Origin: Desmonostoc vinosum HA7617-LM4 | Lineage (GTDB): Bacteria; Cyanobacteriota; Cyanobacteriia; Cyanobacteriales; Nostocaceae | NCBI GenBank assembly: GCA_019359515.1 | Contig: JAHHHC010000002.1 | Span: 248,001-312,000 of the forward strand | DNA: 64,000 nucleotides | Direction of reading: 5' to 3' | The notes under the pieces: model-generated | What the model saw: only the letters and a program-made list of their open reading frames with translations | What the model was told of the DNA's origin: nothing | Databases searched by the model: none | Made by a program: the position numbers and the translations under genes | Shown: piece after piece, positions 37,977 to 51,687 of the stretch | Layout: each line of letters starts with the position of its first letter | Position numbering within the stretch: the stretch's first letter is position 1

Positions 37977-38147
37977 ATGTACACCACAGTTAACGAAAAC
38001 GGCGTTCTCAACAACTACGCAAACGAACCCCAAGTTTATTACGCTGAGTACCCTGCAATCTGGGAACAACGTAAATATGTTATACAAGGTGTGTTCGCTA
38101 CATTGATTGTCACCACCTTAATCTTGGTTAGTTTGAGCGTTAGCTAA
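37977..38147 (+). CDS. psb34: photosystem II assembly protein Psb34 (Ssl1498 family)
   Basis: 56 residues: MYTTVNENGVLNNYANEPQV then YYAEYPAIWEQRKYVIQGVF and a single membrane helix (ATLIVTTLILVSLSVS). The soluble N-terminus with NENGxLNNYA and the YYAEYP motif are diagnostic of the Ssl1498/Psb34 family, which binds CP47-containing PSII intermediates during assembly and repair. A weak AAAGAAAA precedes the ATG, and a terminator follows 58 bases after the stop. An isolated gene with its own promoter in the 37870-37976 AT-rich stretch. Confidence 0.88.
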   Translation: MYTTVNENGVLNNYANEPQVYYAEYPAIWEQRKYVIQGVFATLIVTTLILVSLSVS

Positions 38148-38204
38148 ATTTTTTAGACAACGGTATCGGTTTCTTCCATCGACAACATTGGGCTTTCTCT
38201 GTTA

Positions 38205-38232
38205 CCTCGGTTTCACAACTGAGGTTTTTTAT
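38205..38232 (+). terminator. rho-independent terminator after psb34
   Basis: CCTCGGTT-TCAC-AACTGAGG forms an 8-bp stem (one G:U) at 38205-38224, followed by six Ts. Confidence 0.85.
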
Positions 38233-45051: not shown

Positions 45052-45080
45052 TCCTGACGCAGTTAAAAGCAAGATGGATA
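45052..45080 (+). promoter_or_regulatory. promoter of small RNA copy 1
   Basis: TCCTGA, then 17 bases, then TGGATA. Copies 2 and 3 have CCCGGA-17-TGGATA. The -35 box differs by one base from TCCGGA, the DIF-type motif known from heterocyst-differentiation-dependent promoters in Anabaena. Confidence 0.6.
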
Positions 45081-45086
45081 TATAGA

Positions 45087-45146
45087 TAGTAGATGCACCT
45101 TAATTAAATCACAGTCCTCGGCTTTTAGTTGGGGACTTTTTTTATT
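45087..45146 (+). ncRNA. tandem small RNA, copy 1
   Basis: The predicted transcript starts about 7 bases after TGGATA. The shared body is GTAGATGCACC followed by an AT-rich linker. The terminator stem is GTCCTCGGC/GTTGGGGAC (loop TTTTA, with G:U pairs), followed by seven Ts. About 60 nt. Most diverged of the three copies. Confidence 0.7.
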
Positions 45147-45211
45147 AATTTATAGTGGTTAATTATTTAGATATTTATGACTATAAAATGATAGTTGAAA
45201 AATTGGTTTCT

Positions 45212-45240
45212 CCCGGATGCTACTCTAAATCGAATGGATA
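45212..45240 (+). promoter_or_regulatory. promoter of small RNA copy 2
   Basis: CCCGGA-17-TGGATA at the same distance from the shared transcript body as in copies 1 and 3. Confidence 0.65.
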
Positions 45241-45246
45241 AATAAA

Positions 45247-45306
45247 TGGTAGATGCACCCTAATAAATTATTGCCCCCAGCTTTTGACTGGGGGCTTTAC
45301 TTTTAA
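45247..45306 (+). ncRNA. tandem small RNA, copy 2
   Basis: Body GGTAGATGCACCCTAA then linker and stem GCCCCCAG/CTGGGGGC (loop CTTTTGA), then TTTACTTTT. The stem letters differ from the other copies at several positions, with both sides changed so that pairing is kept. Confidence 0.75.
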
Positions 45307-45330
45307 AAAACAAATTTCAAATAAAAATTT

Positions 45331-45359
45331 CCCGGATTTAGCAATAAGCAAAATGGATA
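45331..45359 (+). promoter_or_regulatory. promoter of small RNA copy 3
   Basis: CCCGGA-17-TGGATA, identical in both boxes and spacing to copy 2. Confidence 0.65.
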
Positions 45360-45365
45360 AATAAA

Positions 45366-45424
45366 TGGTAGATGCACCCTAAAAAATTACAGTCCTCACC
45401 TAAAAACTGAGGACTTTTCTTATT
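45366..45424 (+). ncRNA. tandem small RNA, copy 3
   Basis: Body GGTAGATGCACCCTAA, linker, stem AGTCCTCA/TGAGGACT (45391-45398 with 45408-45415), then TTTTCTTATTT. The 3' end meets the stop codon of the convergent exoD gene. Confidence 0.75.
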
Positions 45425-46025
45425 TAAATATGGCTGGTATTAAACTAGGTGCTAGCCATAATGCATAACCAATAAATGCAAATAATGCAGTAATTAAACC
45501 AGTGATGACATAACTAATACAAATTAATAAACCATCCGATTCAATGGTGGCAACTGCTAATAATAAGATTCCAACCGTGGGGATAGGGTTTGTAAAAGGA
45601 ACTGGCAACATTAATAATATTGTTAGCCAAGAGATACAAATTCCATTAATTCGCCAAACTAAATGATTATGAGCTATTTTTGTCAACCGAGGACGGGTAA
45701 TTTTTTGTAATATTTTGGTGAGGCGTCCGAGATTTTGTAAAAGTAACTGGGCAAAAACGCGAGGAAATTTGTAATTAGCCATTCTTCTCGGTAGCCAAGG
45801 CGATCGCCTTCCCAAAATCATCTGCACTGATAACAACAAGCAAGCAGCACCAAAAGGCCCCGCCAATCCTGGTGGCATCGGAAATAAAAAAGGCAAAACT
45901 AATAACGCAATAACCAAACTAAAACCCCTTTCGGAAGTTTCTGCCAGAATATCACCCAAAGTTAACGGTTGTTCAGCTAGGCGTTGCAGCAACGACTTAA
46001 TATCTTGAGCAAATCTTAGATGCAT
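45420..46025 (-). CDS. exoD: ExoD-family exopolysaccharide synthesis protein
   Basis: 201 residues. Begins [20 protein letters not shown] then [20 protein letters not shown], the diagnostic ExoD motif, with further helices at about 125-145, 150-165 and 170-195. [12 protein letters not shown] is also typical. In rhizobia exoD affects exopolysaccharide production; the mechanism is unknown. The gene converges on the small RNA array, so the last RNA could pair with the exoD 3' end over a few bases. Confidence 0.88.
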
Positions 46026-48559: not shown

Positions 48560-49429
48560 CTAACCAACGTCATCATGGGCGAAGCGGTTGAAGAGAAAAT
48601 CTAGAGCATAGTTACGTAGTTTATAGTATTCTGGATCTTCCATGATGCGGGCGCGATCGCGGGGACGAGGAAAGGGAATTTCCATGACTTCACCAATTTT
48701 GGCATGGGGGCCGTTGGTCATCATGACCAATTTGTCTGCTAAAAATAATGCCTCATCGATGTCGTGGGTAATCATTAACACTGTGCAGCGGTTATCGTTC
48801 CAAATTTTTAGCAATTCTTCTTGTAATTCTTCTTTGGTGATGGCATCTAGCGCCCCAAAGGGTTCATCTAAAATTAAAACTTTGGGACGAATTGACAAAG
48901 CACGGGCAATAGAAACCCTTTGTCTCATACCACCAGACATTTGCATAGGTTTCTTTTCCATGGCATCGGCTAATCCCACCATTGCTAAATTATCGCGGAC
49001 GATCGCTCTTTTTTCAGCTTCGGGTTTATTGGGATAAACGGCGTTAACGGCAAGGTAAATATTTTCAAAAGCAGTCCGCCAAGGTAGCAAGGCATAGTTT
49101 TGAAAGACAACCATTCTGTCTGGGCCTGGTTTAGTAATTGGCTGTCCTTCTAATAAGACTTGCCCGGAGGTAGGAAAGTTAAAACCGGATACCATATTTA
49201 GCAGCGTCGATTTGCCACAGCCAGAGTGACCGATGACGCAAATAAATTCGCCTTGTTCTACGTTGAGGTTAACACCGTCGAGGACGGTGAAGGGGCCTTT
49301 TTTGGTGGGATAAATCTTAGAGACATCTTTAATTTCTAGAAAAGGTTGGCGGCTGATGGTTGTAGTGACTAATGGTTTTCCTAGTTCTTCTCTAGGCATG
49401 TCGGTTACTCTAGAAGTGCGGTTTTGCAT
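48560..49429 (-). CDS. nrtD: nitrate/nitrite ABC transporter ATPase NrtD
   Basis: 289 residues. Walker A GHSGCGKST, signature MSGGMRQRVSIARAL, Walker B VLILDEPFGALD, H-loop MITHD, all intact. High similarity to the first half of NrtC upstream. With NrtB and NrtC it drives nitrate import. Last gene of the nrtABCD set; 251 bp of repeats separate it from nrtC. Confidence 0.95.
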   Translation of the reverse strand: MQNRTSRVTDMPREELGKPLVTTTISRQPFLEIKDVSKIYPTKKGPFTVLDGVNLNVEQGEFICVIGHSGCGKSTLLNMVSGFNFPTSGQVLLEGQPITKPGPDRMVVFQNYALLPWRTAFENIYLAVNAVYPNKPEAEKRAIVRDNLAMVGLADAMEKKPMQMSGGMRQRVSIARALSIRPKVLILDEPFGALDAITKEELQEELLKIWNDNRCTVLMITHDIDEALFLADKLVMMTNGPHAKIGEVMEIPFPRPRDRARIMEDPEYYKLRNYALDFLFNRFAHDDVG

Positions 49430-49680
49430 GGCTGTTTTGGGTTTAATAAATTTATGGGACTGGGGAGCCAGTCATATCATGTCCGTTTAAAGACTTATGA
49501 TTTGGCTGACGCGGAGATAGGGAGACGCGGGGACGCGGAGAAACTTTTATGATAAGTGATTAGCCTGACATGATGTCGCGTGCGGAGGCGTCCTCCGTTG
49601 AGCGAACTGGCGTGACTGGGGAAGAGGACGCGGGGACGCGAAGAAAATTTCTTTCTCATCCCCCTCATCTTCTTACTCCT

Positions 49681-51687
49681 CTACGACGCGACTCTCCTCA
49701 CGGGGGAATCGAGAATTACTTCGGCGACTGAGAAATCACGTTTAATTGGCAAGTTGTTGAGATAGGTGATTGGGTCGTCGGCATTAAAGGGAGTACCATC
49801 GAAGAGTTTGATGGGTTGGCGAATGTAGCTGATATCTAAGCCTAATTCCCGCGCTGCGGTGCTAAATACACGCACTCGACAAACGCGTTCGACAACTTCT
49901 ACCCAGTTTCTGGGGAAGGGAGTGTCACCCCAACGCGCTAGTTGACTCATAATCCAAATTTGTTCGGTGCGGCTGGGACGGTTAATGGCAGACTCAGAAT
50001 AAAACTGGTGGTGGGCGTATTGCCTGAGTGGATGGTCTAAGTCACAGACAAGGCTGTTGGGATCTTCGAGTTGGATATACTCAAGATCTGTGCTGACATA
50101 TTCGCGTCGGGCTAATATTTGCCGCACTTCTTCAGCATTGTCGTGAATTGCACAGTAATAGCAAGCTTCTAATAAGGCTTTGGTTAAGGCAATGTGGGTG
50201 TTGGGATGATTTTCTGCCCAATCTTCCCGCACACCGAGAACTTTACCGGGGTGTCCTAGCCAAACTTCTAAGTCGGTAGCAATGGTAAAGCCCACACCTT
50301 CAACGGCGGCGCGATAGTTCCAAGGTTCACCCACGCAGTAACCATCTATACTGCCACTTCGCAAGTCGGCTACCATCTGGGCTGGGGGAATTGTCTTCAT
50401 GTCTACATCGAAGTCTGGGTCAATTCCCCCAGCTGCTAGCCAGTAACGCAGCAGTAAATTGTGCATGGATGCGGGATGCACTACCCCCATTGTGTGACGT
50501 TGGTCACGGGTACGAAGCAAGTAATTTTTGAAGTCTGATAGGGTTTGCACGCCTTGGTCATAAAAGCGTTTTGCCAAGGTGATGGCATTACCGTTACGCG
50601 TCATCGTCAAGGCGGTGACGACTGGCAGAGGTTGATTGTTGTGTCCTCCCAGTGTTAGCCACATTGGCATCCCCGAAGGCATTTGTGCAGCATCTAAATA
50701 ACCGCCAGTCATGCCATCAACAATACCCCGCCAGCTGCTTTCCCGCACGAGGTTGACTTCATCTAAACCATGCTTGGTAAAGAAACCTTTTTCCTTGGCG
50801 ACTGCTAAGGGGGCGCAAGCAGTTAGAGGTAAGAAGCCAATATCTAGGTTAACTTTTTCTAAACCATGACGAGCGATCGCCGCTGTTTTTCTGGCCCGAA
50901 TTTTCTTGATGCGTTTCTGCTGGTTGAGGAAGTAAATCATCTCACTCCGCAAGCTGTAGTAACTGGGATGTTCAACTACTTCCATCCGCTTGCGGGGTCT
51001 GGGGATATCTACTTCTAGGATGTCACCAATTTTGGATTCGGGGCCATTGGTTAACATGACAATTCTGTCAGATAACAGCACCGCCTCATCGACATCGTGT
51101 GTCACCATCACGGCGGTTACTTCATTTTCTTCGCAGATTTGCATTAATTGTTCTTGCAAATTGCCGCGTGTGAGTGCATCCAACGCCCCAAAAGGTTCAT
51201 CTAATAATAGTAACTTGGGACGGATTGCTAAAGCGCGGGCGATCGCTACACGTTGTTTTTGTCCACCCGATAACATACCGGGCTGTTTGTCAGCATGGGG
51301 ACGCAACCCCACCATATCGATGTGTTTCTCAATAATTGCATTGCGTTCCGGTGCAGGTAAACCCTTCATTACCGAGTCTACAGCCAGGGCAATATTTTCT
51401 CTGACTGTCCGCCAAGGCAACAGCGAATAATTTTGAAACACCACCATCCGGTCAGGCCCTGGTTTACTAATTCTTTGTCCTTCCAGAGTCACAATACCAT
51501 CAGTGGGTAAATCCAAACCCGCGATCATATTTAAGAGAGTAGATTTACCACAACCGGAGTGACCAATCAAAGAAACGAATTCTCCTTTTTTAATTTGGAG
51601 GTCAATACCTTTGAGGGCGATATACTTGCCACCACCAGTTAAGTTAAAAACTTTATCAATTTGGTCAACAGCGACGAATACAGACAT
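49681..51687 (-). CDS. nrtC: nitrate transporter ATPase/sensor fusion NrtC
   Basis: 668 residues. Residues 1-265 form an ABC ATPase (GHSGCGKST, LSGGQKQRVAIARAL, LLLLDEPFGALD). Residues about 280-668 resemble NrtA (LDIGFLPLTACAPLAVAKEK; DFDVDMKTIPPAQMVADLRS; SIDGYCVGEPWNYRA). In Synechococcus this C-terminal domain mediates ammonium-triggered inhibition of nitrate uptake. This fusion is a hallmark of cyanobacterial NrtC. Followed by repeats, then nrtD. Confidence 0.96.
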   Translation of the reverse strand: MSVFVAVDQIDKVFNLTGGGKYIALKGIDLQIKKGEFVSLIGHSGCGKSTLLNMIAGLDLPTDGIVTLEGQRISKPGPDRMVVFQNYSLLPWRTVRENIALAVDSVMKGLPAPERNAIIEKHIDMVGLRPHADKQPGMLSGGQKQRVAIARALAIRPKLLLLDEPFGALDALTRGNLQEQLMQICEENEVTAVMVTHDVDEAVLLSDRIVMLTNGPESKIGDILEVDIPRPRKRMEVVEHPSYYSLRSEMIYFLNQQKRIKKIRARKTAAIARHGLEKVNLDIGFLPLTACAPLAVAKEKGFFTKHGLDEVNLVRESSWRGIVDGMTGGYLDAAQMPSGMPMWLTLGGHNNQPLPVVTALTMTRNGNAITLAKRFYDQGVQTLSDFKNYLLRTRDQRHTMGVVHPASMHNLLLRYWLAAGGIDPDFDVDMKTIPPAQMVADLRSGSIDGYCVGEPWNYRAAVEGVGFTIATDLEVWLGHPGKVLGVREDWAENHPNTHIALTKALLEACYYCAIHDNAEEVRQILARREYVSTDLEYIQLEDPNSLVCDLDHPLRQYAHHQFYSESAINRPSRTEQIWIMSQLARWGDTPFPRNWVEVVERVCRVRVFSTAARELGLDISYIRQPIKLFDGTPFNADDPITYLNNLPIKRDFSVAEVILDSPVRRVAS

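Follow-up and report, generated by a model that had tools for sequence, protein, structure and literature searches.

A second NsiR1 small RNA locus, downstream of exoD, in heterocystous cyanobacteria

RNAs of the NsiR1 family help cyanobacterial cells become nitrogen-fixing heterocysts. The window analyzed here, a 64-kb stretch of DNA (contig C24:248001-312000 of a 7.2-Mb genome, G000), contains three tandem small RNA units at 45052-45421 on the + strand, convergent with exoD (Table 1). In each unit, a YCC(T/G)GA box is separated by exactly 17 bp from TGGATA, which is followed after 6 bp by a 56- to 57-nt stretch that begins with T(A/G)GTAGATGCACC and finishes with a hairpin and a T-run. The pattern YCCKGA-N17-TGGATA has three matches in the 64 kb (45052, 45212, and 45331), all at the array, compared with an expected 0.01, and none of 100 shuffled sequences reached three. 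GTAGATGCACC itself occurs exactly three times in the window (45089, 45249, and 45368), at separations of 160 and 119 bp. The coordinates, the number of units, and the spacing from box to TGGATA, which had first been put forward in a sequence-only reading of the window, were confirmed by these counts.

Table 1. Features of the three-unit array and of the adjoining exoD gene (positions in the window)
Feature	Position	Strand	Description	Evidence
Promoter, unit 1	45052..45080	+	TCCTGA (DIF1-like, one mismatch), 17 bp, TGGATA	Direct sequence, pattern count
sRNA, unit 1 (distal type)	45087..45143	+	TAGTAGATGCACCTTAATTAAATCACAG plus terminator	RF02399, 34.1 bits, E 6e-5
Terminator stem, unit 1	45113..45137	+	Followed by T-run	Folding, terminator scan
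Promoter, unit 2	45212..45240	+	CCCGGA, 17 bp, TGGATA	Pattern count
sRNA, unit 2	45247..45302	+		RF02399, 42.9 bits, E 4e-7, above gathering score 39
Terminator stem, unit 2	45273..45295	+		Folding, terminator scan
Promoter, unit 3	45331..45359	+	CCCGGA, 17 bp, TGGATA	Pattern count
sRNA, unit 3 (proximal type)	45366..45421	+	U-tail overlaps exoD stop codon	RF02399, 34.3 bits, E 5e-5
Terminator stem, unit 3	45391..45415	.	Directly after exoD stop	Folding
exoD (PF06055)	45420..46025	-	Convergent with array, conserved genomic anchor	Pfam, 194 bits

The hairpins of units 1 to 3 have folding energies of -14.5, -19.5, and -11.7 kcal/mol (z, -2.1 to -2.6), with G-U wobble pairs in that of unit 1. A terminator scan detected the hairpins of two of the three units (1 and 2) and did not list the unit 3 stem on either strand. 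Because the unit 3 stem folds on the exoD strand as well (-12.6 kcal/mol; z, -3.9), it is possibly a terminator shared with exoD. The sequence-only reading had taken covariation in the hairpins as strong evidence of selected RNAs; folding and pairing were borne out, but pairing alone shows a terminator rather than a functional RNA. RNA genes are supported more strongly by the matches of all three units to NsiR1 in Rfam and by conservation in other genomes.

All three units match the NsiR1 covariance model RF02399 (scores in Table 1), as the NsiR1-like call of the earlier reading had anticipated; only unit 2 scores above the gathering score of 39, and units 1 and 3, at ∼34 bits (E about 5e-5), lie below it. 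Tandem repetition with individual promoters, a trait of NsiR1, is present in the form of three units that each have a box, 17 bp, a -10 element, and a terminator. The alternative that the array is NsiR8- or NsiR9-like was ruled out by size: these HetR-dependent sRNAs of heterocystous cyanobacteria are single RNAs of 171 and 122 nt (PMC4734099), whereas the window holds three tandem units of ∼56 nt from predicted start to terminator. In common with the hetF-array NsiR1 of Nostoc sp. PCC 7120 (RF02399, an RNA of ∼60 nt), the exoD array has tandem units with their own promoters and terminators, a DIF1-type box at an equal distance, and the same GTAGATGCACC 5′ sequence. It differs from the hetF array in lying downstream of and convergent with exoD rather than antisense to a 5′ leader, in its -10 element and linker, in a shorter hairpin without the GGCTAACACC-like apical part, and in the absence of the CCUGAU segment that pairs with alr3234. 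The window units constitute a distinct branch of NsiR1.

In a genome search with RF02399, the main NsiR1 array was located at C89:5300-6620, where five copies exceed the threshold and two score weakly; it is divergent from the hetF gene (NF045509, 1480 bits). The sequence-only reading, which saw no hetF in the window, had advised looking for it beyond the window's ends; hetF and the main array are both on contig C89, and the window array is on C24 beside exoD, without the hetF adjacency and antisense placement of the known NsiR1. Since location at hetF is a property of the known locus and not of the RNA family, the window array was filed as a paralogous locus, and because the canonical array adjoins hetF on another contig, the window holds a second, exoD-linked NsiR1 locus.

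A further, single NsiR1-like copy (51.5 bits; G000:C24:236897, L023:6897-6950) is found between cobM and lgt, 11 kb ahead of the window; it lies on the antisense side of cobM and has a nearly invariant GGTAGATGCACCCTGGTTAAGCCCTAGAGAAAACTCTGGGGCATTTTTT in the 13 genomes checked. It resembles the exoD units in its RF02399 match (∼51 bits), DIF1 box, and GGTAGATGCACCC 5′ sequence and differs from them in being one copy with the linker CTGGTTAAGCCC and in forming its own subfamily. At ∼43 nt from start to hairpin end, it falls short of the 45 nt that the 2016 sRNA screen (PMC4734099) set as its minimum, a possible reason for its absence from the list of that screen. Elsewhere in the genome, an NsiR1-like GTAGATGCACCCTGATGATC followed by a hairpin and a T-run (23.9 bits) was observed at L025:4389 (G000:C12:132388), without a DIF1-like box at the usual distance.

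Conservation was examined in a sample of 80 exoD loci from named heterocystous genera, fetched via exoD (PF06055). At 65 of the 80 loci, the 950 nt downstream of exoD contain one to five units in tail-to-tail orientation to the gene. The 80 loci are related by descent, so that the unit counts (144 in total) are not independent events; one locus (L089) has eight units in all. The genera with units extend from Fischerella and Chlorogloeopsis through Nostoc to Dolichospermum. The box ends exactly 32 nt ahead of TAGATGCAC in 128/144 units and has at most one mismatch from TCCGGA in 140/144. In 27 loci, a distance of 56 nt separates the proximal unit from the exoD stop, and in some genomes the array is farther from exoD (222 to 559 nt). 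The fifteen loci without units have unrelated sequence at that place, and the array is therefore dispensable in some lineages. The sequence-only reading had also noted the place of the array between a purU operon and exoD; a linkage to purU was rejected, with neither purU nor a DUF6745-like gene within ∼4 kb of exoD in any of the 80 loci, and its placement of the array at a locus away from hetF stood, with exoD as the conserved neighbor instead. Genes for nrtD-like and nrtC-like nitrate transporter ATPases (TIGR01184) occupy 48560-51687 (-) of the window, ∼3 kb from the array, and high-identity nrtD-like genes flank exoD in some other genomes as well.

Because the units were picked by the string TAGATGCAC, their sequence invariance is partly built in, and a relaxed scan (≤3 mismatches) was run to correct for this. 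Only 10 further variants were recovered, of which eight differ only after the 10-mer and two have one change within GTAGATGCAC; the small number of variants points to strong constraint on the 5′ 10-mer. In multicopy loci, the box, the -10 element, and the 5′ 10-mer (the last partly fixed by the way units were found) carry 1.7 to 2.0 bits, compared with 0.8 to 1.3 bits for spacers and most flanks. Among 126 distinct units, most pairs of the terminator stem have changes on both sides with pairing kept, e.g., C-G to T-A. Such covariation supports the assignment of the stems as terminators and is not by itself proof of a regulatory RNA; the invariant single-stranded 5′ part argues more strongly for one.

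The other two loci recur as well. In a breadth set of named genomes, several high-scoring clustered NsiR1 copies were found in 12/12, and of four such clusters that were fetched, three have hetF beside them and the fourth is cut by a contig end. A copy of the cobM-lgt type was also present in 12/12 (cobM was found in 12/12 and lgt in 11/12 of the fetched stretches), and exoD-linked units were present in 10/12.

To compare the loci, 182 hetF-type, 138 exoD, and 13 cobM units were assembled, the hetF-type set being taken from Rfam matches, with hetF presence checked at only some loci. Nearest-neighbor assignment of locus type, with each unit's own locus left out, was right in 332/333 cases, and the window units scored 58 to 72 with exoD units but ≤33 with hetF or cobM units. 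The consensus after GTAGATGCAC is CCTGATAACT in the hetF type, C(C/T)TAATTAAAT in the exoD type, and CCTGGTTAAGCCC in the cobM type; the -10 element also differs, being of the GGATA type in exoD units and of the AACATT type in hetF-array units. By these sequence comparisons, the exoD units are a subfamily of their own, separable from the hetF-array units and the cobM-lgt singleton. Within the exoD array, every one of the 20 array units that best match unit 1 is a distal unit from another genome, the best matches of unit 3 are mostly exoD-proximal units, and unit 2 has no clear counterpart in other genomes. The distal and proximal units are thus positional orthologs, i.e., members of an ordered array that have kept their identity, which suggests separate functions for the distal and proximal RNAs.

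Published work describes NsiR1 as heterocyst specific and HetR dependent, with hetF and alr3234 as targets that it represses posttranscriptionally; NsiR1.1 lies antisense to the hetF leader, and alr3234 is repressed by NsiR1.4, which pairs across the start codon (PMC9045159). Targets were tested by comparing duplex energies with those of shuffled targets, a rough measure that ignores target accessibility. The hetF leader of this genome contains a sequence complementary to the shared seed, and pairing of the exoD units with it is accordingly predicted (-24 to -31 kcal/mol; z, about -5; energies only). Two hetP-like genes in other genomes start with Met-Tyr, as stated for Alr3234, and have leaders with ATCAGGG before the start codon. 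With these alr3234-type leaders, the hetF-type consensus gives -18.6/-16.9 kcal/mol, compared with -9.0/-9.7 kcal/mol for the distal and -13.4/-11.8 kcal/mol for the proximal exoD consensus; by these energies, pairing is not predicted for the distal type and is weak for the proximal type. The predicted pairing of the hetF type serves as a positive control, against which the contrast with the exoD types points to target divergence: the exoD RNAs have probably kept the sequence that pairs with the hetF leader and lost the CCUGAU segment for alr3234-type leaders. Another hetP-like gene, which starts with Met-Asn (L137 and relatives L168-L178), carries ATCAGGG or a variant immediately upstream of its start codon in several genomes; the motif is complementary to hetF-type NsiR1, and the gene is a possible second hetP-family target.

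For the exoD units, no convincing pairing, given the number of tests, was found with the hetP, L136, and L138 leaders of this genome. Outside NsiR1-like genes, exact complements of the 11-nt seed in this genome were found only antisense to or inside coding sequences, and the seed alone therefore yields no new target. The leader of bdlp, which encodes a dynamin-like protein (BDLP, PDB 2j68), carries UUAAUUAAGGUG immediately ahead of the start codon in this genome and two more, and close variants of it in others. A complement of the distal linker, TTAATTAAGGTG, lies within ∼20 nt of the bdlp start in three genomes, this one among them, and variants of it occur in additional Nostoc genomes (L228-L245). 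We regard bdlp as a candidate target of the distal exoD unit and only a lead, because the pattern was searched post hoc, the leaders share ancestry, and AAGGTG looks like a ribosome site.

The window boxes (TCCTGA, CCCGGA, and CCCGGA) are each one mismatch from the DIF1 sequence TCCGGA, and their spacing to the RNA body equals that of the hetF-array units. One mismatch was tolerated in the published DIF+ set, and the synthetic DIF1 promoter had a 17-bp spacer; a DIF1 box alone was insufficient for heterocyst-specific expression, however, and a wrong -10 element lost cell specificity in a reporter (PMC6133370). From the DIF1-like promoters and the family membership, we infer HetR-dependent expression of the exoD array in heterocysts and a link to nitrogen.

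The reading that we favor, at a probability of roughly 0.78, is that the exoD array specifies trans-acting heterocyst sRNAs of the NsiR1 family that are HetR dependent and whose targets have diverged from those of the hetF array. Every unit carries a promoter and a terminator of its own and matches NsiR1, and the locus is conserved in most of the heterocystous genera sampled. Transcription of each ∼56-nt RNA would start from a DIF1-type promoter under HetR control at an early stage of heterocyst formation, and the RNA would act in trans, with its invariant 5′ GUAGAUGCACC and the AU-rich linker that follows pairing with mRNA leaders and so blocking translation; its targets would overlap those of the hetF array at the hetF leader and have diverged from the alr3234-type target. 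Against this reading stand the prevalence of CCCGGA or TCCTGA boxes, the GGATA-type -10 element, the scores of two of the three units below the Rfam threshold, and the 15/80 loci without an array. The divergent boxes and -10 elements, with the published loss of specificity when a DIF1 box lacks the right -10 (PMC6133370), would also suit true sRNA genes that are transcribed in all cells from ordinary AT-rich promoters. We consider this quite unlikely, as the 32-nt distance from box to body is that of hetF-array units, the 17-bp spacer is that of the synthetic DIF1 promoter, and a scan found no sigma-70-type promoter at the array locus. That the exoD units only enlarge the pool of hetF-array RNA, with no targets of their own, would agree with the shared 5′ 10-mer and the strong predicted pairing with the hetF leader (-24 to -31 kcal/mol). 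It is nonetheless unlikely, since the linker after GCACC consistently differs (UAAUUAAAU versus GAUAACU), shows conservation in its own right (distal units, 1.98 bits per site), and removes the predicted pairing with alr3234-type leaders, and since distal and proximal units have stayed distinct.

A local role, in which the array works on exoD as a convergent antisense or terminator device, draws on the tail-to-tail layout, the near-constant proximal distance to the exoD stop (56 nt in 27 loci), and the hairpin that folds on both strands; a terminator, however, needs no multiple units with independent promoters, the array is distant from exoD in some genomes (222 to 559 nt), and the invariance resides in the RNA's 5′ sequence rather than in the exoD overlap, which makes this explanation improbable. 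Two units under the Rfam threshold and lineages with none might instead indicate decaying, functionless NsiR1 copies left by duplication. This is very improbable given the conservation of the box, -10 element, and 5′ 10-mer (1.7 to 2.0 bits versus 0.8 to 1.3 bits in spacers and flanks, the 10-mer being partly fixed by the search) and the range of the units from Fischerella and Chlorogloeopsis to Dolichospermum.

In the accessible NsiR1 literature, the hetF array alone is described, with no mention of the exoD and cobM-lgt copies, although a prior mention in the main papers of 2010 to 2020 is possible. Work on NsiR1 has so far dealt with a single array, that at hetF, in a single model strain, and even there two variants differ in their targets. 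With a second conserved array that has another linker and a third conserved singleton, the overexpression and depletion of NsiR1 would have addressed only part of the family. A tentative and rather doubtful extension is that NsiR1 is a regulon of three loci (the hetF array, exoD array, and cobM-lgt singleton) with one invariant seed and locus-specific linkers, in which the siblings might divide early-heterocyst targets and the distal exoD unit might have a target of its own, with bdlp as the candidate. The three loci provide naturally occurring sibling sRNAs with which to ask how targets are apportioned by seed and linker as cells differentiate. Apart from the array, the window contains a match to Rfam PsrR1 (RF02701) at 38145-38229 (+), which at 44.1 bits is just above the gathering score of 42.
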